From the NCBI GenBank assembly GCA_015233195.1, contig JADFYE010000015.1, positions 1 to 46,439 of the forward strand: 46,439 bases of DNA, given 5' to 3'. The notes beneath the pieces were generated by a model that worked only from the letters and a program-made list of their open reading frames with translations, was not told the DNA's origin and made no database searches. Below, in pieces: positions 977 through 27,122 of the stretch. This DNA comes from Candidatus Omnitrophota bacterium. Its GTDB lineage: Bacteria > Omnitrophota > Gorgyraeia > Zapsychrales > Zapsychraceae. A program made the position numbers and the translations under genes. Within the stretch, counting starts at the first letter, position 1. Every line of letters begins with the position of its first letter.

Positions 977-1004
977 ATTATCACAGGCAGGAGGATAATG
1001 TCAA
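977..1004 (-). promoter_or_regulatory. Sigma-70-type promoter for folE-folB
   Basis: On the minus strand TTGACA (999-1004) is followed after 16 nt by GATAAT (977-982), a 6/6 and a 5/6 match. The -35 overlaps the stop codon of the upstream GGDEF-EAL gene. A start about 7 nt past the -10 falls near 970, only about 4 nt before the folE ATG, so the mRNA would be leaderless or nearly so, in keeping with the missing ribosome site. Confidence 0.65.
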
Positions 1005-4000
1005 ATTTCACCTTTTATCTTATTCATATATGCTAAAAAATCTGCAGGTGAGACCGGTTTGCTGAAATAAAATCCCTGAACATAATCACAACCATAATCT
1101 ACTAACATTTCAAGCTGCTCCCGGTTCTCTACTCCTTCAGACGTGACTTTAATGTTCAAACTCTTGCCTAAAGAAATAATACCTTTTATAAGCGCGTTAG
1201 CATTAATATTCCCCGGCATTTCTTTTATAAAACTCCGGTCGATCTTTATCATATGAAACGGGAATTTCTGCAAATAATTCAATGATGAATATCCGGTACC
1301 AAAATCATCAATCGCAAAATGCACGCCCATAGCACAGATCTTTTTAACTGTACTCATAACATGCTCGCCGCTATCCATAAGTAAATGTTCTGTTATTTCT
1401 AACTCTAATTTTTCCGGAGGCAATTTTATTTCATCCAATACCCGTTTTACAGTCTCAGCTAAATCGCTTTGCCTAAACTGCCGAACTGAAATATTAACTG
1501 CCACCTTTAAAGATAAGCCTAACTCATCATTCCAATATTTAGCCTGATTACATGCTTCCCTTAATACCCATTCACCGATAGGAATTATCAAACCATTATC
1601 CTCACAAAGTGAAATAAATTTATCCGGCATCACTAAACCTAAAACTTTATTCTGCCAACGTAAAAGCGCCTCAAACCCTATAATCTTTCCAGTATGCAAA
1701 CATACTAAAGGCTGATAATGTAAAAAGAATTCTTTATTCTCCAAAGCGTGACGTAAATGCACCTCTAATTCCATGCGTTCCTGCATTTTTTCATTCAAAG
1801 ACTGAGTAAAGAAAAATATAGTATCGCGGTTGCCTTCTTTAGCTTTAAACATAGCAGCGTCGGCATTCTTGAATAATATATGTGAATCCCGTCCATCCAT
1901 TGGCGCGATTGTAATCCCTATACTAGCGGAAGTGAAAAGTTCTTTATCCTTTATCAAAAATGATGTTGATAACAAACCTTGAATTTTTTTCGCAATTATC
2001 TCCGCATGCGCAGGATTATCCAGATCTGACAAAATTACCAAAAATTCATCCCCGCCTAACCGTGCGACCGTATCACTTTCCCGGACAGCGGATTTAATTC
2101 TTTCAGCAGCTTGCTGTAAAACGCTATCGCCATAAGCATGACCTAGAGTATCATTTATCATTTTAAAACGGTCTAAGTCCACCATTAAAACCGCAACGTT
2201 CTTATTTTCTCTTTGAGCACGGGCAACTGCCTGAGTCAAACGGTCTATCGCCAAAATCCTATTAGGTAAATTAGTTAATGCGTCATAATTTGCCTGATAT
2301 TCTAAACGGTTCTCATATTCTTTCCGTAGCGTAATATCTTCTTCAATAGCCACAAAATGAGATATTTGCCCTTTTGAATTGTTTATTGGTGAAATGGACA
2401 CATACGACCAATATACTTCCCCGTTTTTACGTCGATTACATATTTCCCCGCTCCACATTTTTCCAGAAAGAATAGTATCCCAAAAATTTTTATAATAGGT
2501 CTGTGCCGTATATCCTGACTGCAATATCCGAGGAGATTTACCTAATACCTCTACCGCGGAATAACCAGTTATCTCTGTAAATTTTTGATTAACATATTCA
2601 ATGTCGCCTTTTAAATCAGTAATTATAACTACAGCCGGACTCTGCTCAACTACACAATTGAGTTTTAAGCTTAAATCTTTGATTTTTTGCTGTTCGGTAA
2701 CATCAAAACCTGCGCCAAAGAAAAATTCAATTTTCCCGTCGTTATTGATCACTGGCGCGCCCCGCCATTCGACCAAAATCACCTTACCATTTTTAGCAAT
2801 AATATTATTGGGAACAGCGCTAATATGCTTGCCGCTCAACATTTCACTGAACCAACCTCTTAAAAGGTAATGCTCCCGCTCTGGGACAAAAAGACTCAAA
2901 TAATCTTTACCTTCAACTTCTTCTTTCTGATATCCAGTAGCTTTTAACATCGCCTGATTAATTAACAGCGTCTTTCCTTCATTGCTTATAACCGCAAAAA
3001 ATATTGGAGAATGGTCCAAAATCGAACTGGTAAAATTCTTTTGTTTCAATAATTCTTCTTCAACCTTTTTCCGTTGAGAGATATCTGTACCAATTGAAAG
3101 TACTCCAGTTAATTTTTTATCTTGATCATAAATAGGTTTATTGGTCCAAGTAACCCAAACTTTTTCCCCATTATTTTTAATATTTTCATTATCATGATTT
3201 ATATATTTAGCCGGATTATTCACAAGATCTTGAACAAATCCTTCCAAATCTTGACCATGGGAATCTTTGGCTGGGATTATACGGTTTATGGGGCTTTGTC
3301 CGATTAATTCATCTTTAGTGTATCCGAAAAATTCCAAAGCAAATTCATTAATAAAAGTTATTCGTCCATTAATATCAGTTTTCAAAATTATACTATTGGC
3401 GTTCTCGACCAATTCCCGGTATTTTTGTTCACTTTCAAGCAAAGAAAGCTCTGCCAATTTTGTTTCAGTCTCATCCTTAAAAATCGCGACTATCTCTCCA
3501 TTAGTCAATTTAAATACAAAATTCTTAAACCATGATGTTAACCGTGCGTCTTTATACTCGCGGGTATCCATAGTCTCAGCATTACCGCTGATATTTACTT
3601 GCTGGCATAAATTAAAAACTCCCATTTGTTTTGCATATGGAAAAACATCTAGAATCCTTTTTCCAATTATGTCTTCTTTTTTTACTTTTGTCATCTGACA
3701 ACCAGCTTCATTCATATCCACAAATATGAAATCCTTACCATCATCAACCGGTTTATAAACTGCCACACCTTCTCTCATAGTATTAAACAAACTTCTAAAA
3801 CGCTGTTCACTTACACTCAATTCGCGTTCCCATTCCTTACGCTGAGTAATATCTGAAATGACCGCAAATCCACCTTTCAAATTACCTTTTTCATCAAAGA
3901 TCAACTGAGGAGAAATAAGTCCCAAAAAAATTGTTCCATCTTTTTTGGTTAACTCTAATTCATAATAGTTATTTCTTTTATCATTAGATATTTTCAAAGC

Positions 4001-4903
4001 TTTCATAAAAAGCTCGAAACCCTGCGGGGTGAGAAAATCAAATATTGGTTTGCCTATTATCTCTTCCGGGGCATAATTCAAAAATTCACAAAATCTTGGA
4101 TTTACATACTGGATACGCCGCTTAGCGTCAATAACACAAATACCATCATTCATCGTCTCAACTAATGAACGATATTGCTCTTCTCTTGATACTAATTTTT
4201 CGTCGGACTTTTGCCTATTTAATTCTTGTTCACTGAACTGCCAAATTAGATATAACGATAAAATACCTATGATAAATAACAATCTAACAAAAAGCTCAGT
4301 CAGCTCTTTTAAATATTTATTAGCTTCTTCATCTACCTCATGGACATAAAAACCAGCACCAATAATCCATTTCCAAGGCACAAATTTTTGCACAAAAGTT
4401 ATTTTTGGCAAAGTCCGGTTAGGATGATCTACCCACTGCCAATAATAATTAACATACCCACCTTCTGATATTCTAGACTTATCCAGAATATCCGTAACAT
4501 AATGTTTGCCGGTAGGATCCATATAATCCGAAATATCTAAATTTTCTAAATCCGGACGATATGGGTGCATCAGCATTATGCCGTTACTATCCAAAATAAA
4601 AAAATAATCTTTATGTTCTCCTCCGAATCGTAATAACCGGACTTGATTTAAAGCTTTTTTCTGCGCTTCTTCAAGTGATATTTGACCCTTTTCAACCTGG
4701 GTTTCATATACTTTCAAAAGATCAACCACTAACCCTGCCATTTCTCTGACCAAGGTTTTTTTTGATTCCAAAATATTAGTACGCAAGGAAGGAATCCCAA
4801 AATAAAAAACTGCCATAAAAATCAGAAAGAAAGTAATGAATATAGGAAGGATGTTTCTTACAAATATACGCAGAAGCATGTTAATAAAAAACGTTTTTTT
4901 CAT
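1001..4903 (-). CDS. Membrane-bound Cache-PAS(x5)-GGDEF-EAL c-di-GMP turnover protein
   Basis: A 1300-aa sensor that should both make and degrade the second messenger cyclic di-GMP. Order: transmembrane segment about 12-35; extracytoplasmic single Cache-like domain about 40-205 (contains DYFFILDSNGIMLMHPYRP); second transmembrane segment about 206-225; five PAS modules starting near 240, 363, 490, 622 and 745; GGDEF about 875-1035; EAL about 1045-1290. The cyclase site is intact (RLGGDEF near 949) with an RxxD inhibitory site (RESD) five residues before it. The phosphodiesterase motifs are also intact: FEALLRW, NISVRQF, EITE, DDFGTGYSSL, IKIDRSF, SEGVE and QGFYF. Which activity dominates cannot be read from sequence. 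It stands alone; its stop overlaps the folE promoter. The Cache domain suggests a small-molecule ligand outside the inner membrane. A c-di-GMP riboswitch lies 12 kb away. Confidence 0.95.
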   Translation of the reverse strand: MKKTFFINMLLRIFVRNILPIFITFFLIFMAVFYFGIPSLRTNILESKKTLVREMAGLVVDLLKVYETQVEKGQISLEEAQKKALNQVRLLRFGGEHKDYFFILDSNGIMLMHPYRPDLENLDISDYMDPTGKHYVTDILDKSRISEGGYVNYYWQWVDHPNRTLPKITFVQKFVPWKWIIGAGFYVHEVDEEANKYLKELTELFVRLLFIIGILSLYLIWQFSEQELNRQKSDEKLVSREEQYRSLVETMNDGICVIDAKRRIQYVNPRFCEFLNYAPEEIIGKPIFDFLTPQGFELFMKALKISNDKRNNYYELELTKKDGTIFLGLISPQLIFDEKGNLKGGFAVISDITQRKEWERELSVSEQRFRSLFNTMREGVAVYKPVDDGKDFIFVDMNEAGCQMTKVKKEDIIGKRILDVFPYAKQMGVFNLCQQVNISGNAETMDTREYKDARLTSWFKNFVFKLTNGEIVAIFKDETETKLAELSLLESEQKYRELVENANSIILKTDINGRITFINEFALEFFGYTKDELIGQSPINRIIPAKDSHGQDLEGFVQDLVNNPAKYINHDNENIKNNGEKVWVTWTNKPIYDQDKKLTGVLSIGTDISQRKKVEEELLKQKNFTSSILDHSPIFFAVISNEGKTLLINQAMLKATGYQKEEVEGKDYLSLFVPEREHYLLRGWFSEMLSGKHISAVPNNIIAKNGKVILVEWRGAPVINNDGKIEFFFGAGFDVTEQQKIKDLSLKLNCVVEQSPAVVIITDLKGDIEYVNQKFTEITGYSAVEVLGKSPRILQSGYTAQTYYKNFWDTILSGKMWSGEICNRRKNGEVYWSYVSISPINNSKGQISHFVAIEEDITLRKEYENRLEYQANYDALTNLPNRILAIDRLTQAVARAQRENKNVAVLMVDLDRFKMINDTLGHAYGDSVLQQAAERIKSAVRESDTVARLGGDEFLVILSDLDNPAHAEIIAKKIQGLLSTSFLIKDKELFTSASIGITIAPMDGRDSHILFKNADAAMFKAKEGNRDTIFFFTQSLNEKMQERMELEVHLRHALENKEFFLHYQPLVCLHTGKIIGFEALLRWQNKVLGLVMPDKFISLCEDNGLIIPIGEWVLREACNQAKYWNDELGLSLKVAVNISVRQFRQSDLAETVKRVLDEIKLPPEKLELEITEHLLMDSGEHVMSTVKKICAMGVHFAIDDFGTGYSSLNYLQKFPFHMIKIDRSFIKEMPGNINANALIKGIISLGKSLNIKVTSEGVENREQLEMLVDYGCDYVQGFYFSKPVSPADFLAYMNKIKGEI

Positions 4904-14522: not shown

Positions 14523-16304
14523 TTAGCTAAATGACAAAGACAATAAATTTTGAAACAGCGCTTCAAGCTCCTTTAATTGTGCCAAAGCTTTTATTTTCTC
14601 ATCTTTTAATTCTACAACTTTGGAAAACATATCCCGGTAATATTCAAAAGCTTGAGCGACATTTTCTTTTAAAGCATCAAACCCTTTTTCACCAGCAGCT
14701 TGTCCAGCACGTAAAGCGCAAGAAATATAATCTATGTACAATTCCAATTCCCGGATAAAAAGATTAGGTCGATCAACATTTTCTAAAAGATTGATCCTCC
14801 CGTAAATATGACTTACCATTTCTTCTAATGACACTATCTTCGAAAAATATATCAAATTAGGTCCCGGACATACTGCAGGAGAGTTTTCTTCTTTTTTGGC
14901 AAGACCATATTTCAATAAAGCGCCTTGCGCCAGATCAAAACATAAACAAGATTTATTAACCAATCTCTTACGTTCATTTTCAATCTCTTCTTCAGAAAGC
15001 TTCTTATCCGCCATATTCTTTAAAAATAGCTTATGATAAGCAGTTGAAGCTAAACATAAATCCTTTTTTGCAAGACCAGGATATAAAGCTAAATAACCAC
15101 GCGGACAACTGCTTCCTGGTTTTCCCATAGCGTTTTTTTCGTTTTTCTTAAGCTCACTACCGCTGTTTTTCAAAGTATAGAACGGAACATTTAAAGGCGA
15201 CACACCACTTAAAATAATATCACCCTCTTTTGAAGCGGATAATTTTTGTAAAGTATCATCGTCAACATTAGTCACTTCCGGACATAATAAAAATGGTGAT
15301 GCCCACCCAGTACCATCAACCTTAAAATAATCCCGTAAAAACTTATCTTCAGCCGCAGTACCAATACCGCCTTGTACCGTAATTCGTATCGGCTGTTTAA
15401 TATCCGTTGCTACACCTTTTTTATTTAACGCCTCAAGATATATCGAGCCTAAGGTATCGGATAATTCATTGCGTTTTTGTTGAAATTCGTCTAAGACCAA
15501 ACCCAAAGGTTTTGCGTTCTCCACAAAAGCATGACCACCGCAATTTATTCCAGACTCAATTCTATACTCACTAATCCATACCCCATGTTTAGCAAATATT
15601 TTACCTTGCAAAAAAGCTGACCTATAATCACTGATCTTTAAGATTATTTTTTTCTTAATATCGCCCAACATATCCGCATAAAAATCTTTAAATTCAAAAA
15701 GATATTTATATAATCGCTGATTTAATCCTGCAGATAAAACTACTGAACCATTCACTTTACTCTTAGCAAACCCTCTTAAAGCAGCATGTCCGTCATTGTA
15801 TTCAATCGGCATTTGCTCGCCGTTCTTATCATAATTATTCCGGTCTACCTTGACCATAATATTAATATCAATACTTCCCATCTTAACTTCACGACGCAAT
15901 TTATGCTGAATTTGTTTTTTCTGGTTATGGTCTGAAATTTTAAGCATCTCTAAATAAAGTTTCTTTAACGGCGAGGTTTCCGGAAGCATTTCAAAATATT
16001 TGGTAAGCTCTGTACCTTTTTCAAATTGCATACGTTTTATTGCAGCGATCTGTTTACGTACTATATCCCAGACCATATCCAAATAGCTAGTAATACGTTT
16101 GGCGCGGTAATCTTCCTCACCTTTATTTATCGGGAAATAATCTTTATTATATTTTTCACAATAATATTTTCGCATCCGCTCGATTAGCTCATCATCCGCC
16201 ATTGGAATAACCGACGATATGCCAAAACGCGCTATTTTTATTGGAGTATCAATTGAATATCCAGTTCCCATAACCGGAACATGAAATGAATGTACATTTT
16301 CCAC
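14523..16304 (-). CDS. Conserved cysteine-rich protein of unknown function, possible FMN/TIM-barrel
   Basis: A 593-aa soluble protein without signal peptide. Function unknown; I recall similar uncharacterised proteins starting xxVHxFHVPVMGxGxxIDTP in other phyla. The middle part contains [11 protein letters not shown] and [20 protein letters not shown], reminiscent of nitronate monooxygenase-like FMN barrels (a glycine-rich phosphate loop). The second half is rich in spaced cysteines: [41 protein letters not shown] and [13 protein letters not shown], which could bind a metal or Fe-S cluster. It starts with GTG and has GGGAGG 9 nt upstream. It is first in a unit with metX-metW, behind an attenuator-like leader, so a link to methionine or sulfur metabolism is plausible but inferred. 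Confidence 0.75.
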
Positions 16305-16402: not shown

Positions 16403-16552
16403 AGGTGTCAAGATATATATTATACTATTTATACTACTTATTTTACCAATAATTGATCTCGGAAAACGTTTTCTATTATTTTCGGCAAGCTATGGTTTTT
16501 CCCTATTAATCAGTATATACTTTTATTGGAAGTAAACGTTCTTTTAAAGTTT

Positions 16553-16636
16553 AAAAGGTAAACTACTCGAAAGAGTGGGGCGCAAAGCCATGAAGCTAAA
16601 GCTTAAAAAAGCCATGCTCGTCTGGTTGCCGATAAG
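16553..16636 (+). ncRNA. Cyclic di-GMP-I (GEMM) riboswitch
   Basis: The sequence carries the diagnostic GEMM-I core: GGTAAAC near 16557, a P2 stem ACTC-GAAA-GAGT with GAAA tetraloop (16564-16575), then GGGGCGCAAAGCCATGAAGC, and a closing GGTTGCCGA (16624-16632) that pairs back with GGTAAAC. The receptor side with CTCGTCTGG lies between. The aptamer binds c-di-GMP in the family. It is followed by an intrinsic terminator and then the small secreted protein at 16724, so control is by termination or read-through; direction (on or off) is not readable. Upstream only a -10 (TATACT, 16516-16521) is visible. The gene-free stretch 16425-16552 otherwise shows nothing recognisable. Confidence 0.88.
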
Positions 16637-16661
16637 GAAATCGTAAAATCCGAAATCTTTA

Positions 16662-16687
16662 GCCCTCTCTCTTTTGAGGGTTTTTTT
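16662..16687 (+). terminator. Intrinsic terminator, expression platform of the c-di-GMP riboswitch
   Basis: CCCTC and GAGGG flank an 8-nt loop and are followed by seven T, 26 nt after the aptamer and 37 nt before the ATG. GAGGGGG just downstream (near 16701) could compete for CCCTC, offering a possible alternative fold. Confidence 0.8.
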
Positions 16688-16723: not shown

Positions 16724-16975
16724 ATGAAAATCTTAACCATTCTAATTACCGCAGCAATGCTTTGCACAAGTCTGGTCTGGGCAGAAACAAAAAGTTACAC
16801 AGTCTCTGTAGTTATTCCGCAGATAGTCGGAGTCAACTTCTTTCCCAACCAGGATAATCAGCAGATCACAAACAACAACAGATCAGTATATACTCAATCA
16901 TCCCAGCTGATATCTGAAAATGAAGAAATGCAAGGAAATCAACTCGTTACAATAAGAACCATCGTTGCCAAATGA
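16724..16975 (+). CDS. Small secreted subunit-like protein under c-di-GMP riboswitch control
   Basis: An 83-aa protein with a clear signal peptide (MKILTILITAAMLCTSLVWA, cut before ETKSY), leaving about 63 mature residues. AAGGAG 7 nt upstream fixes the start; the frame is open further up but lies in the terminator. The mature N-terminus KSYTVSVVIP resembles the N-termini of the nearby subunits (KTYAVSVTLP at 20728-21402), and the C-terminus QLVTIRTIVAK resembles their last strand. The whole central domain of those subunits is missing, replaced by an Asn/Gln/Ser-rich stretch. It may be a capping, priming or regulatory mini-subunit of the same fibre; that is inference. Its stop is 4 nt from the convergent usher-like gene. 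Confidence 0.8.
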   Translation: MKILTILITAAMLCTSLVWAETKSYTVSVVIPQIVGVNFFPNQDNQQITNNNRSVYTQSSQLISENEEMQGNQLVTIRTIVAK

Positions 16976-16979
16976 TGTT

Positions 16980-19820
16980 CTATTTTTTCTTTAAAGGAAT
17001 GTAAAAAACAAAGGTAGAACCTTCTTGCAAAGAAAAAGTTTTTTGAAGACTAACACTGGGTATATACTCCAAAGGAATCGAATTTATATCTATTTTTAAC
17101 ATATGCTCGCCCTTGCTCACACCCTGAAAAACAAACGTCCCGTTCTGATCACTCTTAACTGAAGATTTTTTATCTAAATATATTTTTACACCAGGAATAA
17201 ATTCTTCCCCTCTATCCGGCTTTTTATTATCATTCAAATCCAGAAAAACAATACCAAAAATACCAGTATTAGTTGATAAACCAAAATTAGCCATTTGCGT
17301 CTTATATCCGGTCAAAGTAAGTTGTACATTACCCGGTGTGCTCAAAATATAACCCGCAGGAATCGTATCAACCAAAACTTCTGCTGTGGCGTGCTTTGCT
17401 CTTATTTTAGTTGAATAAAATCCTTTAGCGTCGGAAATAAGGGTCTTTTTGCCTAATTGAATTTTTACGCCCGACACACCAGGCTCATCAAACTCGCGGC
17501 TGCCATTTGCATTATTATCTTTATATACATACCCTTCTATCTTAGCTAATGGCGTCCACGAAAAAGGACTTTCTAAAGAAGTTCGTACGCCTCCGCGTAA
17601 AGCAATTTCACGATATGGATCACTATTATTACTTTCAGCCCAAACATTAGAAAACCTGCTGTCAAAATATATTTGAAAATCAGGCGATGGATTAAAACTA
17701 GCTGATACCCCGGTATTAAGACTATCCTGCCCACTTAAAAAACTATTAACCCCCTCGGTATTCTGTTCATCCCGATAGTAAGCATTCGCAGAACCAGATA
17801 AATGATCACTAAAATTATGAGTATAATAAAATCCTGATGTAAAAACGCTCGGCGACGCCCAAGTTTTAATCCCTTTAGTTTCTATCCAAGAGAATTCCAT
17901 ATTAGAAAATTGGTTTAAATTATCCAAAACCGGCAAATCATATCCTACCGAAGTAGAATATCGATCATATTCAGAAACTCCGCCGGAATCACTTCTGCTT
18001 ACCTGATATAATCCCTGAATAAAAGTGTTTATTTGCCGTTGACCCCAAATTGGAAATCTCTTAGAATAACGGTTTGAATATTGAAAATTAGTTCGCGGCG
18101 AGATTTCCTGCGGATTATTCGAATAACTTACCGCAGTCTCCATTTGTCCGTCATAAATAAAAGGAGTATCCAGTATCGTCGATGTATCAATGTTTACCCC
18201 ATTCTCATTATCCGGATTCGGATAAGCCAGATTATTATATAAATTCAAATTAGAGCTCAGATATACATTATCCGATGGACGCCAATTCCAATCGAGCAAG
18301 CCCGCGATCTCCCCGTTATAAGCGGGAAAGCCTGCGGTATTCTGATATTCAGGATGAATATTATAGAAACTTAAATTTAATTTTGTCAGATCCGTAGAAT
18401 ATCTTGTGCCAACCGAAGCAGCGGTATGATTTTCATCATAACCAATCTCTCCGCGGGAAAGCCAATGGTCAAAGGTCCGAACTTGCCCTTCTACAGACAT
18501 CACCCTATCCGGCAAAGTAGCCATTCTTCCTTGACCAAATCCTCTGGCAAAATTAAACGCGACATTGTTATCCTTATCAGGGAACAATTTAATACGCGCA
18601 CCCTCAGTATAATTATCTCCTTCAGTACTGGCAGACAAACCATTAAATACACCAAAAGTACCTAAATCTTTTCCTCTGAAATACGAAAATTCAACTAAAC
18701 TTTCCAGCATCTTAACATTAGCGAAATATCCGCGTAAACTTTGTAAAGGCGCGCTTAAATCCGAAAATCCACCCTGTCCATCAAAGACCCGTAAATTATA
18801 ATTATTGATCAAACCTAAACTGCCTCGAGACAAACCAATAGTGTAATAAGAAGGATCCGCCTCCTCATTATTTTGAGTAGTAGTTAAAGCCATATCCAAA
18901 AACCCATACGGAGTTTCCCCAGTTATATTATTGGCATAAACGTATTGTAAAGACTGCCGTCTCATATCAGCTTCTTTTCTTCCTGAAAAAACTGTATTCC
19001 AGTCGATAGAAGTATAAAGTTTAAAAGGTTCGGATTTACTTAACGCTTGCTCTTGCTTTCGCTGCGCAGTTTGATCCACCGGGATTATGGTGTTTATATC
19101 TAAATTCCATCTTCCCTTTTCATCCCAGATATATAACAAAGTTTTTCCAAACAAAGCTTTCACGCCTAAACGATTAATATCAATTTTAGAAACCTCGATC
19201 ACACCCGGAGTAAGTGCTAAAAATTTCTGGATATTCCGACCTTCAAAAATATATGATTTATCAAATTCAAGAGTCATTGCTATTTTCGGCATACTTTGCC
19301 ACAAAGCGTCATCCAGCATTATAGTTTTTGTTACTTTTACCGACGCTGGAGCAGAAATAACTTTTGATTCAGGAGAAGAAACAACTTTAACTTCAGGCGT
19401 GGCAGATTTAACATCAGAAGCAGCAGTAGCTCCGAATTTTGATACAGCAGTGGGAACCTGCGAATTTTCCGCAGCATCAAGAGCCTTTTTTAAAGCAGCT
19501 TCCCTATCAACATAAACTGTTTTTTTCTCATACGACTCAAGAATTTTCGCCACCGTATTCTCAACAGGTTTCTCGACAGAAATTTCTTCTTTACCATTAA
19601 TACTTTGAATTAATTCGATTAATTCTTGGGGTTCGTTTGCTGACGGTTCAATCGATTTCGCTTTATTAAAACTATCTAAAGCTTTAAAATATTTTTTTTG
19701 ACCTAAATAATTTTTTCCTTCTTCCAACAAATATTTATAGACGAGAGAATATTCGCTGTGCGCGGGCAGAGCATATAGCATAAACAAAGTTGAAGCAAAA
19801 ATGATGACATATTTTCTCAT
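16980..19820 (-). CDS. Usher-like outer-membrane barrel with pilus-secretin N-domain and two SdrD-B-like domains
   Basis: A 946-aa exported protein. Order: signal peptide 1-22; TPR-like helices about 25-70; a charged, Ala/Ser/Val-rich linker about 75-165; about 181-246 a domain like the pilus-secretin N-domain (T2SS/T3SS pil_N type), with EFDKSYIFEGRNIQKFLALT and LLYIWDEKGRWNLDI; about 255-755 a long stretch of alternating aromatic strands typical of an outer-membrane barrel; then two B-type Ig-like domains at 761-853 and 854-946, each opening with a DxNxNG-like calcium loop (KDNNANGSREFDEPG; LDLNDNKKPDRGEEF). N-domain, barrel and two C-terminal sandwiches parallel the layout of fimbrial ushers, though I see no direct usher sequence signature. 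It is last in an operon with a chaperone and subunits, so secretion or anchoring of the fibre is the likely role. Confidence 0.7.
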   Translation of the reverse strand: MRKYVIIFASTLFMLYALPAHSEYSLVYKYLLEEGKNYLGQKKYFKALDSFNKAKSIEPSANEPQELIELIQSINGKEEISVEKPVENTVAKILESYEKKTVYVDREAALKKALDAAENSQVPTAVSKFGATAASDVKSATPEVKVVSSPESKVISAPASVKVTKTIMLDDALWQSMPKIAMTLEFDKSYIFEGRNIQKFLALTPGVIEVSKIDINRLGVKALFGKTLLYIWDEKGRWNLDINTIIPVDQTAQRKQEQALSKSEPFKLYTSIDWNTVFSGRKEADMRRQSLQYVYANNITGETPYGFLDMALTTTQNNEEADPSYYTIGLSRGSLGLINNYNLRVFDGQGGFSDLSAPLQSLRGYFANVKMLESLVEFSYFRGKDLGTFGVFNGLSASTEGDNYTEGARIKLFPDKDNNVAFNFARGFGQGRMATLPDRVMSVEGQVRTFDHWLSRGEIGYDENHTAASVGTRYSTDLTKLNLSFYNIHPEYQNTAGFPAYNGEIAGLLDWNWRPSDNVYLSSNLNLYNNLAYPNPDNENGVNIDTSTILDTPFIYDGQMETAVSYSNNPQEISPRTNFQYSNRYSKRFPIWGQRQINTFIQGLYQVSRSDSGGVSEYDRYSTSVGYDLPVLDNLNQFSNMEFSWIETKGIKTWASPSVFTSGFYYTHNFSDHLSGSANAYYRDEQNTEGVNSFLSGQDSLNTGVSASFNPSPDFQIYFDSRFSNVWAESNNSDPYREIALRGGVRTSLESPFSWTPLAKIEGYVYKDNNANGSREFDEPGVSGVKIQLGKKTLISDAKGFYSTKIRAKHATAEVLVDTIPAGYILSTPGNVQLTLTGYKTQMANFGLSTNTGIFGIVFLDLNDNKKPDRGEEFIPGVKIYLDKKSSVKSDQNGTFVFQGVSKGEHMLKIDINSIPLEYIPSVSLQKTFSLQEGSTFVFYIPLKKK

Positions 19821-19858: not shown

Positions 19859-20656
19859 TTAGTCGGAAATTTTATCTATGCTGATAAGACTCCCGTTTTT
19901 GGTCAGAGTGATTTCTTTATTAATTACATCCTCATCCTGCAGATCAAAAGAAAGCATTAAAGTATAGGTCCCATCATCCTTTATTTTTGGATCAAACGTC
20001 AAATCTTTTACAGTTGATGGCGGCAAATATATATTTTCCAAATCGCCCCTATCAACAACATTACCGTCGCTGGTTATCAAATTATACACCGGGTGACAAA
20101 CTACAATTACATTACCCTTATTCTCAAAATTCATAACAATTTTATTGTCTTTTACTTTTATATCAGTAATAACCGTAGTCTTACTTTTCGTAACTGGCTC
20201 AACAAAAAACAAACTTCCGGTTCTTGACACTAAATTTATACTTTTACCGCCCATGGACGCAGACTCAGGCGCGTTTTCAAAAAATAAAACCCCATAATGT
20301 CCTTCATTAAAAACCTCTGGTACTTTTACAGTATAAGTAACAATTTGTTGACTCCGAGGAGACAGTTTAAACGTAGTCGGACTGGTCGATACCCAAGCGC
20401 CTACACTATTCGGACTTACTCCCTGCGGCATAAAATCTTTGGCACCATCAAACGGCGGTTTATAAGCAAAGTCTTCGAAATACGATTTGATGCTAATTTC
20501 TTTATTAGTGGTGTTGTGAATTACAATCTCGCCTGAAGCAGTTGAATTTGGTTCCGCGTTAAGGACTATTTTACCTTGTTCAATCATAATTTGAGCGTTA
20601 GCTAAATATGGAAAAAATAACAATGCTACGGTAAAAATAAATAATTTTTTTAACAT
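19859..20656 (-). CDS. Periplasmic chaperone-like protein (PapD/DUF916-like, two Ig-type domains)
   Basis: A 265-aa exported protein: signal peptide 1-21 (cut after YLANA), then two predicted beta-sandwich domains, about 22-145 and 150-265. The first has the pattern of fimbrial chaperones and of DUF916-type proteins: IVLNAEPNSTASGEIVIHN, FKLSPRSQQIVTYTVKVP and GHYGVLFFENAP, where PapD-like proteins have PxxFxLxPxxxQxVR and YRxxF. No cysteine disulfide is present in the mature protein (one Cys only). It lies between the pilin-like gene and the barrel gene, the classical place for a chaperone. The usual basic Arg-Lys cleft of PapD is not obvious, so it may be a distant or independent member. 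Confidence 0.65.
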   Translation of the reverse strand: MLKKLFIFTVALLFFPYLANAQIMIEQGKIVLNAEPNSTASGEIVIHNTTNKEISIKSYFEDFAYKPPFDGAKDFMPQGVSPNSVGAWVSTSPTTFKLSPRSQQIVTYTVKVPEVFNEGHYGVLFFENAPESASMGGKSINLVSRTGSLFFVEPVTKSKTTVITDIKVKDNKIVMNFENKGNVIVVCHPVYNLITSDGNVVDRGDLENIYLPPSTVKDLTFDPKIKDDGTYTLMLSFDLQDEDVINKEITLTKNGSLISIDKISD

Positions 20657-20685: not shown

Positions 20686-20720
20686 AAAAGCAAGGAGAGC
20701 ATTACGCTCTCCTTGCTTTT
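20686..20720 (-). terminator. Strong hairpin between pilin-like gene and chaperone gene
   Basis: AAAAGCAAGGAGAGC and its perfect complement form a 15-bp stem with a 5-nt loop (ATTAC), 8 nt after the stop of the pilin-like gene and 30 nt before the chaperone start. The U tract is only TTTT then AATTT, so it is probably a leaky terminator or a 3'-end stabiliser, which would give more pilin mRNA than chaperone/usher mRNA. Confidence 0.75.
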
Positions 20721-20727
20721 CTTTAAT

Positions 20728-21402
20728 TTAACTTGCTGTAGCAGAAATTGTAAGTGTTCCGGAATAAGCACCTGATTTATCTGAAGCCACGAAAGGTTTC
20801 AAATCTGCATCAGGCGGTGTACCTGCTCTTCCAACCCACATCCCAACATACAAACGGCACCAAGTGCCTGCAGGAAATGATGTGCTGGTCAATGACATAG
20901 TACCAATATTCTTTAAAGCTTTTTCAGAAAGAATAACTTCACTAGTACTGGTGGCGGAAACATAAGTAACCTGTGCAGCTGAAGCGATCATTTTATAACC
21001 TAATTTTTGATCAACTGGCTGACCAGTCGGAGCGCTGCCTTCAGTATAAGACAAAGTAACATTGCTCAATGATGCAAATTTAGGAGCTACCTCGATCGCA
21101 AAATAATAATTGGATTTATACACATCAAAAGTAGCGCCTGTACCAGGATCGGTCAAACCAAAACTTACATCTCCAGAGGCTAAAGTCAAACTGGAAACTT
21201 CTGTGCTCCAAGTATCATCAGTGGCAGTAGCTGTACCTTTACCATCAATTTTAAAAGCTTTAATATTAAGTATCGGTGTTTGTGTAGGCAGCGTTACTGA
21301 TACCGCGTACGTCTTGGTGCTGGTGATAGCAAAGCTTTGCGTGGCGCACAGACCAAGCACAAGCAATGCTCCCAAAACTGAGCTCATGGTTAATTTTTTC
21401 AT
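20728..21402 (-). CDS. Major pilin-like fibre subunit
   Basis: A 224-aa secreted protein with signal peptide 1-25 (cut after QSFA). The mature N-terminus TSTKTYAVSVTLPTQ has alternating hydrophobic residues like a donor strand, and it ends in AYSGTLTISATAS, like the last strand of spore-coat-U/Csu-type subunits. It is Thr/Ser/Ala-rich with one cysteine. It is paralogous to the product of 22891-23499: shared YTEGxAPxGQ, KLGYK, RLYxG, ADLxP and the C-terminal strand. AAGGAG 8 nt before the ATG is the best ribosome site of the cluster, and the hairpin after the gene suggests high expression; both suit a major structural subunit. Confidence 0.72.
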   Translation of the reverse strand: MKKLTMSSVLGALLVLGLCATQSFAITSTKTYAVSVTLPTQTPILNIKAFKIDGKGTATATDDTWSTEVSSLTLASGDVSFGLTDPGTGATFDVYKSNYYFAIEVAPKFASLSNVTLSYTEGSAPTGQPVDQKLGYKMIASAAQVTYVSATSTSEVILSEKALKNIGTMSLTSTSFPAGTWCRLYVGMWVGRAGTPPDADLKPFVASDKSGAYSGTLTISATAS

Positions 21403-21442: not shown

Positions 21443-22813
21443 TTATTTTTCACTTAATGTATATACAACTGACGCCTTATAAGTTCCTGCTTTAAGTTCC
21501 GCGTAAGGTTCCAATTTATATAAAACCTTAAACTCAGAAGCGGTTCCATTGTTGTCAGATAAAAAGATTGGATTTTGATTAACATCTACTTCTTTAAATC
21601 CAACGCTTTCAACTTGTCCGCGCTGGTTCTCACCCAGTACTTGTTTAGTAGTGAAATACCGCGAATCATAAACTTCCGATTTCTCATTCATCAGCGGAGT
21701 AACGAATTTCTGCATAACCGCATAAGGTTTTTTCATGTTCGTCTTAACCTTAACTGCCACTTCTTTGCTTTGCGGAGGCATATCCGGTAAAACCTTATTG
21801 AATGAGACACCACCTTCGGGAAATTCAACATTCATTTCAAAGATCGGTTGAACATCAATCAGCACGCTTACATCATAAGTACTGGTATTACTTTCAGTTT
21901 CCACTTTATACCGCATGATGCCGCGGTATTTTCCAGCAAACAGATCTGATTGATTAAGAGTAAAAGGAATTTTAATCGTATCCTGACTATTACTCGACTT
22001 ATAAATCAGATCATTCATTTTTACTTCCGCATAACTCGACTTAATACTTTGCTCAAATTCAGGCTGAACTTTAAACACCAAAGCTGATCTATCAAGTATT
22101 TTTGAATCTTCACTCTGAGGAGGATTTAACCATTCTTGATAAATTCTGATTTCCTTCCCGTCGTTCTCGCTGAATTTAATCACCACTCCGTCTTCTTTTA
22201 TGCCGTTCTTATCCTGAACTACTTCAACTGAATTCTTAATGTTAGCCCCTTCGACACTAACCTTTAACTGCGATGCTACTTTGTCGATATAAAGGTTAAC
22301 AAAAATCCGGGCTTGCGCACTGCTGCCTATAGTCCTGACCTCATACTGAACCCTGGAGAAAAAATTACCTGAAACATTTATCTGATCCTTATCGACCATA
22401 TACATCATACTGAAATTACTGCCTTCACCTGAAGGGCTGGACGTATATATCAATTGATCGGTTAATCCTAATGATTCAGGAACCTGCACATATAAAGTCC
22501 CGGACGAATTCGAGTCATTTCGGGAATAAGTTTTAATTGCCATAGGTGTAAGCGTCTGACCTTGTTCATTCCGGGGGCTGTCTAACAAAGTTTGAAATAC
22601 CTGATATTGTTTGCCCTCAGTTGAGGTTATTCTAACCCGGACTTCTTTCAGCAGGTCATCCTGCGTCTCTAAACGGCTGAATCTGATATTCGGACTTCCG
22701 TCAAGAGGCGTTACACTTACCGCAACACCGGCATTACACGGAATTAACAAAACCCAGCTTAAAAACAATAAAGCTGACATAGAGAAAAGTATTTTATGAA
22801 CTTTATTAGACAT
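21443..22813 (-). CDS. Secreted protein with three tandem Ig-like repeats (possible tip or base subunit)
   Basis: A 456-aa exported protein (signal peptide about 1-28). It is built from three repeats of roughly 145 residues beginning near 70, 223 and 364: YQVFQTLLDSPRNE, IRIYQEWLNPPQSE and YAVMQKFVTPLMNE. Each then has a (L/P)I(Y/F)xS turn and closes with a strand like FSRVQYEV, YRGIMRYKV or YKASVVYTL. The N-terminus GVAVSVTPLDG echoes the subunits. No enzyme motif or cysteine pair is seen in the mature part. Size and position before the pilin-like gene suggest a tip, anchor or adapter. I do not recognise a named family. Confidence 0.65.
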   Translation of the reverse strand: MSNKVHKILFSMSALLFLSWVLLIPCNAGVAVSVTPLDGSPNIRFSRLETQDDLLKEVRVRITSTEGKQYQVFQTLLDSPRNEQGQTLTPMAIKTYSRNDSNSSGTLYVQVPESLGLTDQLIYTSSPSGEGSNFSMMYMVDKDQINVSGNFFSRVQYEVRTIGSSAQARIFVNLYIDKVASQLKVSVEGANIKNSVEVVQDKNGIKEDGVVIKFSENDGKEIRIYQEWLNPPQSEDSKILDRSALVFKVQPEFEQSIKSSYAEVKMNDLIYKSSNSQDTIKIPFTLNQSDLFAGKYRGIMRYKVETESNTSTYDVSVLIDVQPIFEMNVEFPEGGVSFNKVLPDMPPQSKEVAVKVKTNMKKPYAVMQKFVTPLMNEKSEVYDSRYFTTKQVLGENQRGQVESVGFKEVDVNQNPIFLSDNNGTASEFKVLYKLEPYAELKAGTYKASVVYTLSEK

Positions 22814-22890: not shown

Positions 22891-23499
22891 TTACGGCGCG
22901 ACTGCTGTTACTGTTATTGTTCCGGTATACGTACCGGCTTTATCATAACTCTTAAACGTTTCAGCTCCCCGAGGAATAAGATCCGCGGTTTCTGATCCGT
23001 CAATTATCCCAATATATAACCTTAAAAATCCATCACCTTGTGCAATATTGATAGTATCGCCTGATTTAATCTCATTAAAATATTTGATCGCGTGACCAGG
23101 AATCGCGAACTCAACACCATTTTTTACCTTAGCAAAATTAATCTTACCTTTATAACCCAATGTTTTCACTTGACCAGCCGGCGCTGTCCCTTCTGTATAT
23201 TGAACCGTAGTAGCAACTCCGCTAGTTCCTGAAGCAATATTCACATCAACCACAAAAAATTTGTCCGGCAAATATATTTCAGAATCCGTCTGATAAACCA
23301 AAGTCCCAAAATTTAATTCCTGAGTCGCATTAATCTCATTAAAAGTCTGCGGTGCATTTTTAGCCATTGTATAAGCGCCAATATCAAGCCGCGTAATATT
23401 AGGAACAAAAGCTGTGATCATGAACTGCTCAGTATTAGCTGCTATACAGAGTTGAGCAGTAAAAAAAATAAAAAATAAAAGTATGAAAAATTTTTTCAT
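22891..23499 (-). CDS. Pilin-like fibre subunit (paralog of the major subunit)
   Basis: A 202-aa secreted protein with signal peptide MKKFFILLFFIFFTAQLCIA. The start at 23499 has AGGA 9 nt upstream; the frame stays open upstream to 23640 but crosses the promoter. The mature N-terminus QFMITAFVPNITRLDIGAY looks like a donor strand, and the end AGTYTGTITVTAVAP is a terminal subunit strand. It shares YTEGTAPAGQ, LGYK, RLYIG and the C-terminus with the 224-aa subunit, so the two arose by duplication. As first gene of the cluster it may be a minor or initiating subunit. Confidence 0.7.
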   Translation of the reverse strand: MKKFFILLFFIFFTAQLCIAANTEQFMITAFVPNITRLDIGAYTMAKNAPQTFNEINATQELNFGTLVYQTDSEIYLPDKFFVVDVNIASGTSGVATTVQYTEGTAPAGQVKTLGYKGKINFAKVKNGVEFAIPGHAIKYFNEIKSGDTINIAQGDGFLRLYIGIIDGSETADLIPRGAETFKSYDKAGTYTGTITVTAVAP

Positions 23500-26486: not shown

Positions 26487-27122
26487 TTATTCATCAATCC
26501 TCGTAACCTTAAACTTTATTTTTCCGCCGTCGGGACAGGTAATTCCGGTTTTACAATTTGGATTTTTTTCAAAAGAAAATGTCGCGCCAAAATTCATTTC
26601 AAATAAAACCGGGAATAATAAATGATACGCAGCTCCGCACATGCCATCCGGAGTTCTTAGCCCAGTTACTTCCCATTTATCTCCTACTTTGTAACCATAA
26701 TGACATGTGTTATCGCTGTGCTCGACTTCAATCAGCATTTTTTTTGGTTTTGGTCCAGTTGGTTTTTCCTTCTGCGGAACTACTACCACCTTTCCATCTT
26801 TATCCAAAAGCTCAATTTTAAACGCCATTTTACCGCCGTCTGGACAAGTAGTTACTAAAGACGCAGTATTTTCCATAAAAGGAAATCTACCCCCAAAGGT
26901 TAAGGTATGCATAGCTGGAAAAGCAGCATGCGTAATAGCCAAACAAAAATGTTCAGGCGCATGAGTAAAATCTTTTAAAATAAATTCATCCCCGACTTTA
27001 TAATTGTGATAACAAAAATTATTATCATTTTTAACGACGGTAAATTTCAATTGCGGAAATGTCATTCTCGCAGTTTTAACATCTTTTTCTTTTTGATTTT
27101 CATCACATTTATCAGGACACAT
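26487..27122 (-). CDS. Tandem TIGR04076-like protein (two fused copies)
   Basis: A 211-aa protein consisting of two copies of an approximately 90-residue unit. Copy 1 (about 25-107) has CYHNYKVGDEFILKDF, HAAFPAMHTLTFGG and CPDGGKMAFKI. Copy 2 (about 130-210) has CHYGYKVGDKWEVTG, TPDGMCGAAYHLLFP, FGATFSFEKNP and CPDGGKIKFKV. This matches my recollection of the TIGR04076 family, of unknown function and usually a single copy. Cysteines at equivalent places (start of GYKVGD, CPDGG) could bind metal. A further CPDKC at the N-terminus is unique to this protein. Confidence 0.7.
   Translation of the reverse strand: MCPDKCDENQKEKDVKTARMTFPQLKFTVVKNDNNFCYHNYKVGDEFILKDFTHAPEHFCLAITHAAFPAMHTLTFGGRFPFMENTASLVTTCPDGGKMAFKIELLDKDGKVVVVPQKEKPTGPKPKKMLIEVEHSDNTCHYGYKVGDKWEVTGLRTPDGMCGAAYHLLFPVLFEMNFGATFSFEKNPNCKTGITCPDGGKIKFKVTRIDE

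Follow-up and report, generated by a model that had tools for sequence, protein, structure and literature searches.

The window analysed here is a stretch of 46,439 nucleotides, positions 1 to 46,439 of contig JADFYE010000015.1 from a Candidatus Omnitrophota genome (GCA_015233195.1). The subject is an open reading frame on the minus strand, USH (P0001), which starts at an ATG and encodes 946 amino acids. USH is the last of five minus-strand genes, in the order PIL2, CP4, PIL, CHP, and USH, and a short plus-strand gene, SML, runs towards its 3′ end. The features of the locus are as follows.

16547–16633, plus strand: c-di-GMP-I riboswitch aptamer (Rfam RF01051, 77.1 bits)
16661–16682, plus strand: terminator-like hairpin with a T-run just after the aptamer; the leader also has an alternative pairing
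16724–16975, plus strand: SML, candidate mini-subunit gene (83 aa), convergent with USH; it begins like a signal peptide and has a donor-strand-like segment but lacks a pilin body
16980–19820, minus strand: USH, usher-like outer-membrane protein (AlphaFold2 model, PDB fold match, profile match)
16986–17264, minus strand: USH residues 853–945, second C-terminal β-sandwich (Pfam, AlphaFold2)
17271–17549, minus strand: USH residues 758–850, first C-terminal β-sandwich, SdrD_B (PF17210; profile match to usher C-terminal domains)
17571–19022, minus strand: USH residues 267–750, β-barrel of 26 predicted strands without a plug-size insertion (AlphaFold2, fold match, homologue lengths)
19086–19328, minus strand: USH residues 165–245, small β domain of pil_N type in the place of the usher N-terminal domain (PF13629 in family members)
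19467–19751, minus strand: USH residues 24–118, TPR-like helical repeats (AlphaFold2 helices; TPR_2 in family members)
19859–20656, minus strand: CHP, predicted two-Ig-domain periplasmic chaperone, 265 aa (AlphaFold2; PDB matches to WxLIP, CfaA, EcpB, FimC, and CsuC; EcpB/EcpE profile)
20686–20720, no strand assigned: hairpin of 16 pairs in the gap that separates PIL from CHP, resembling a terminator on either strand
20728–21402, minus strand: PIL, pilin-like subunit with an N-terminal alternating hydrophobic (donor-strand-like) segment (alignment; profile relation to CP4)
21443–22813, minus strand: CP4, 456 aa of repeated pilin-like domains, which may be a tip or minor subunit (alignment; profile)
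22891–23499, minus strand: PIL2, second pilin-like subunit with a likely internal ATG start (open reading frame and alignment)

Two further minus-strand genes nearby had no Pfam match at E 0.01: a 593-aa protein that adjoins the system (14523–16304), and a protein whose two halves resemble each other and contain cysteines (26487–27122).

A preliminary description of USH, made from the sequence, had read it as a chain of TPR, pilus-secretin N-domain, barrel, and two SdrD_B domains, and this chain is real. In a Pfam search of P0001, SdrD_B (PF17210) was significant over two stretches (E 4e-13) and TPR_2 fell below threshold (E 0.0088). PF13629, which had also been expected, did not match P0001 itself and was found instead in 26 of 29 aligned family members (best E 8.9e-11); at the same limit of E 1, SdrD_B was matched by all 29 and TPR_2 by 23. 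The claim that the pil_N-type domain stands without a secretin pore was likewise upheld, as no secretin family appeared among the Pfam matches of P0001 or the 25 families listed for its relatives. With no secretin domain seen in these matches, and usher barrels at the head of the fold search described below, we rejected the reading of USH as a secretin. An AlphaFold2 model of USH, built from 29 sequences (pLDDT 81.8, pTM 0.56), placed a disordered linker (residues 117–163) between the TPR-like helices and the small β domain (~165–245), and followed them with the anticipated barrel, whose 26 long strands were counted in this one model, and the two β-sandwiches. Across 57 homologues the barrel stretch spans 481–546 amino acids, so that the layout is conserved rather than fortuitous. 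Moreover, the largest insertion in the barrel relative to P0001 is 13 amino acids (56 homologues), and no homologue therefore has room for a plug of the kind found in FimD.

When the barrel and the two C-terminal domains of the model were compared with the PDB using Foldseek, the first 13 rows were all FimD or PapC (E 2.8e-19 to 7e-12), in keeping with the usher-like layout noted at the outset, and the first protein that is not an usher was PqqU (E 3e-10). The TM-scores of the first row were low (0.31/0.36), with a large rmsd over several domains, which we attribute to a different placement of the domains. VIA-align superposed FimD (9fy9) on 503 residues of the USH model (265–943) with a Z of 17.1 and an rmsd of 17.1, and the FimD barrel alone (3ohn) on 359 residues at 4.6 Å (Z 16.7). 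The solved structure with the highest Z was that of MtrB, which is not an usher (Z 17.9, 418 aligned residues, 5.7 Å); as its Z lies within 1 of that of FimD, we regard the two as tied. MtrB is a barrel of 26 strands. Its position at the top of the VIA-align list favours an alternative in which USH is a convergent usher: a barrel of other origin, MtrB-like or porin-like, would have acquired SdrD_B and pil_N domains and been taken into service by pilins and a chaperone of EcpB type. The Foldseek rows count against this alternative. A direct sequence search of the PDB gave no match for P0001 and one chance-level row for P0002.

Profile comparisons bear on the same question. A profile of 57 Omnitrophota USH proteins matched the eight ushers of E. 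coli K-12 at 91.6% (E 8e-7), and values of 88.8–91.6% were obtained across comparisons with classical ushers. Controls gave 4.3% for TonB receptors, 0.2% for LptD, and 1.9 and 2.5% for reversed profiles. Six random subsets of 20 USH rows scored 65–95% against ushers and 1.3–5.6% against TonB receptors. As a yardstick of known homology, classical ushers matched EcpC at 65%; the USH family matched EcpC, entered as a single sequence, at 1.3%. Once the profile was split, the C-terminal domains matched those of FimD/PapC-type ushers at 36.6% (reversed, 0.8%), which counts against convergence. Homology to a known usher across the middle region, which the preliminary description had named as evidence against convergence, was borne out only weakly: the barrel alone gave a weak match to classical ushers (14%, E 0.002), and controls ranged from 0.4% to the 5.4% of TonB receptors. 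The weakness of this match counts in favour of the convergent alternative. The N-domain of USH showed no profile similarity to the usher N-terminal domain (0.4%). Going by the split values, USH is tied to ushers well by its C-terminal domains and overall layout, and weakly by the sequence of its barrel.

The definition of a FimD/PapC-type usher in PMC8410936 includes a plug domain inside the barrel. USH shares with these ushers a usher-fold transmembrane barrel (in the predicted model), which is large and followed by two tandem β-sandwich domains, and its gene comes directly after that of a two-Ig chaperone. However, FimD and PapC carry the plug, a typical N-terminal domain, and the PF00577 signature, whereas USH has no insertion of plug size, has the TPR and pil_N domains in place of the N-terminal domain, and does not match PF00577; the barrel is of 24 strands in FimD/PapC and of 26 in the single USH model. 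PF00577 was above cut-off in none of 193 genomes of the phylum, the source genome included, and did match in the E. coli control. Because plug, N-terminal domain, and PF00577 are all lacking, we have not filed USH as a member of the FimD/PapC family.

The gene upstream of USH encodes CHP. The AlphaFold2 model of CHP (pLDDT 93.3) has the two-Ig-domain chaperone fold, and its best PDB match by Foldseek was WxLIP of Enterococcus faecium (E 5e-12), which shares the two-Ig fold and is a Gram-positive protein, followed by CfaA, EcpB, FimC, CupB2, and others. VIA-align gave Z 15.9 for WxLIP, although with a large rmsd over both domains (7.7 Å), and Z 14.8 for CfaA at 4.7 Å over 197 residues, which makes the chaperone of CFA/I the closest by fold among chaperone-usher chaperones; CsuC (13.4), FimC (13.4), and PapD (12.7) scored lower. 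By profile, CHP is closest to EcpB and EcpE of ECP (EcpABCDE), an alternative chaperone-usher system of E. coli (92.1%, E 6e-7); a set of nine classical chaperones gave 39.3%, and reversed controls gave 0.1–1.4%. Weak matches to WxLIP_PGBD were seen in 22 of 34 CHP members at a limit of E 1. In CHP, the donor-strand positions correspond to residues 140, 142, 144, and 146; V, I, or L predominates at each except the variable 144, giving the alternating hydrophobic G1 residues typical of a chaperone, and R145 is invariant (52/52). In PMC4654587, Pro60 of EcpB, in strand D1, is described as invariant in the chaperone-usher chaperone superfamily; it aligns with P93 of CHP, where proline is kept in 43 of 52 sequences. 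Arg89, conserved in archaic and alternative chaperones, is not kept in CHP, where the aligned residue 122 is A in 22, G in 18, and S in 7 of 52 sequences.

The presumptive subunits are encoded upstream of CHP. PIL and CP4 are related by profile (96.1%), and the mature start of PIL, after the signal peptide, is an alternating hydrophobic segment that resembles a donor strand. PIL matched K-12 pilins at 56%, over no more than 38 N-terminal columns, those of the signal peptide among them, and EcpA at 3.2%; CP4 had no profile relation to EcpD, EcpA, or chaperones. The hairpin between PIL and CHP could mean that more pilin is made than chaperone and usher. We sampled 56 loci with 57 ushers, picked for spread rather than at random. 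A CHP homologue lies no more than two same-strand reading frames upstream of the usher in 55 of the 57 (all but L064 and L084), and a pilin-like gene is found upstream in 52; those with none labelled are L055, L066, L075, L079, and L084, of which L055 and L079 lie near a contig end. Distant loci such as L072 have tandem single-domain subunits before the chaperone. Directly upstream of the operon in L056, L060, L083, L111, and L114 there is a further protein of 730–930 amino acids with a weak match to the usher profile; in L060 (13423–16206) it has TPRs and lacks SdrD_B.

A conserved pattern derived from a close seven-row alignment and searched with one genome per species led to 36 loci, 35 of which are titled Omnitrophota, Omnitrophica, or Ca. 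Aceula, and one (L099) only "bacterium". A pattern scan with the single protein over genome contigs gave 20 pattern stretches and no relative. Among 384 genomes searched in the phylum, 105 matched the profile of the USH barrel (E 1e-3 or lower), a few of them weakly, and 168 matched P0001, many by SdrD_B only. In PMC10066038, Omnitrophota have been proposed to attach to hosts, and the words "usher" and "chaperone" are absent from its main text. We found no paper describing this Omnitrophota system in the open-licence PMC literature, where two papers contain both "Omnitrophica" and "usher".

Outside the phylum, tblastn searches with P0001 and with P0002 led to the same plasmid operons of Deinococcus, although the five plasmid records found with P0001 all matched through the C-terminal SdrD_B domains only. 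Rows from Staphylococcus and Acinetobacter also appeared in the plasmid search with P0001, and actinobacterial rows in the chaperone search. We inspected five Deinococcus loci (D. deserti, D. psychrotolerans, and three Deinococcus sp.). Like the Omnitrophota operons, all five encode a homologous chaperone and a large protein ending in SdrD_B or CarboxypepD domains, with a small gene upstream; in four, a further gene lies between the chaperone and the large protein. Their chaperones matched the CHP profile at 99.9% (E 2e-35), and the C-terminal domains of the large proteins matched at 99.5%. In contrast to the TPR and pil_N domains of USH, the Deinococcus proteins have N-terminal Ig-like domains, and they had no profile link to either the Omnitrophota barrel or classical ushers (0.1–0.3%), a further point in favour of a convergent usher. 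Annotation in these operons is mostly hypothetical; one label is FimB/Mfa2, and two are carboxypeptidase-regulatory. Archaic chaperone-usher systems have been reported for Deinococcus-Thermus.

Taken together, domains, predicted folds, profiles, and gene order give good support to the idea that USH would work like an usher, and very probably it serves as outer-membrane usher in a chaperone-usher pilus system, of divergent type, that belongs to Candidatus Omnitrophota. On the best reading, the system is a variant of the chaperone-usher pathway that we did not find described in open-licence literature and that has relatives in Deinococcus. Convergence from unrelated parts, which the preliminary description had considered possible, is not supported in view of the homology of CHP to EcpB/EcpE, the profile match of the family to ushers, and the alignment of usher C-terminal domains with the SdrD_B domains; because CHP is homologous to the chaperones of known chaperone-usher systems, an inherited usher is the simpler explanation, and we consider a convergent one improbable. 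It is more improbable still that the barrel is a surface anchor or export pore which holds SdrD_B stalks or exports Ig proteins singly, with no donor-strand polymerisation and with CHP as a WxLIP-like binding partner, for although SdrD_B occurs in surface stalks, WxLIP heads the PDB matches of CHP, and WxLIP_PGBD is weakly matched, CHP superposes more closely on CfaA, has a strong EcpB/EcpE profile match, and is encoded with pilin-like subunits that have donor-strand-like N-termini.

The locus also has an addition on the opposite strand. The stops of SML and USH are 4 bp apart (16975–16980), and since there is no terminator in this gap, any riboswitch transcript that continued past it would run antisense to USH. 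Mature SML matched mature PIL at the N-terminal segment only (61.9%; reversed, 0.3%). A short opposite-strand reading frame of the SML family follows 30 of the 57 ushers, and any short opposite-strand frame follows 39. We scanned 43 of the 56 loci for riboswitches (all but L055, L061, L065, L072, L074–L079, L082, L084, and L086) and found a c-di-GMP-I-type aptamer in 32; in 31 of the 43 it is convergent with the usher and within 1 kb of its end, with a chance expectation of ~0.07 if there are about seven such aptamers per genome. The source genome has four above cut-off. Three loci (L064, L067, and L070) have c-di-GMP-I aptamers ahead of the main operon's pilin genes as well as before the convergent small gene. 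Elsewhere on the contig, the minus strand encodes a sensor with Cache, several PAS, GGDEF, and EAL domains (1001–4903), which is likely to be a c-di-GMP-metabolising enzyme.

Based on these features, assembly might proceed as follows. PIL, PIL2, and CP4 would reach the periplasm by Sec, where CHP would lend its G1 strand and so complete the Ig folds of the subunits. The resulting complexes would be received at an entrance formed by the TPR and pil_N domains, which replaces the usher N-terminal domain. From there they would pass to the pair of SdrD_B-type domains at the C-terminus, be linked into a polymer through donor-strand exchange, and leave by way of the plug-less barrel. The riboswitch would control SML, which we suggest may be a cap or anchor that ends or anchors the fibre, donating a strand and accepting none. 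A bolder version, which we put forward tentatively and think rather unlikely, is that Omnitrophota and Deinococcus share a separate, widespread class of plug-less ushers gated by TPR and pil_N domains, in which a riboswitch-controlled donor-strand peptide caps the pilus and c-di-GMP thereby sets the length or anchoring of the fibre.

The occurrence of this class in Omnitrophota extends the chaperone-usher pathway to an uncultured phylum. An usher without a plug or an N-terminal domain would make it testable which domains the mechanism needs, and the cultured Deinococcus relatives, among which D. deserti is open to genetics, make such tests feasible. Finally, a mini-subunit under riboswitch control suggests that fibre assembly may be controlled directly by a second messenger.
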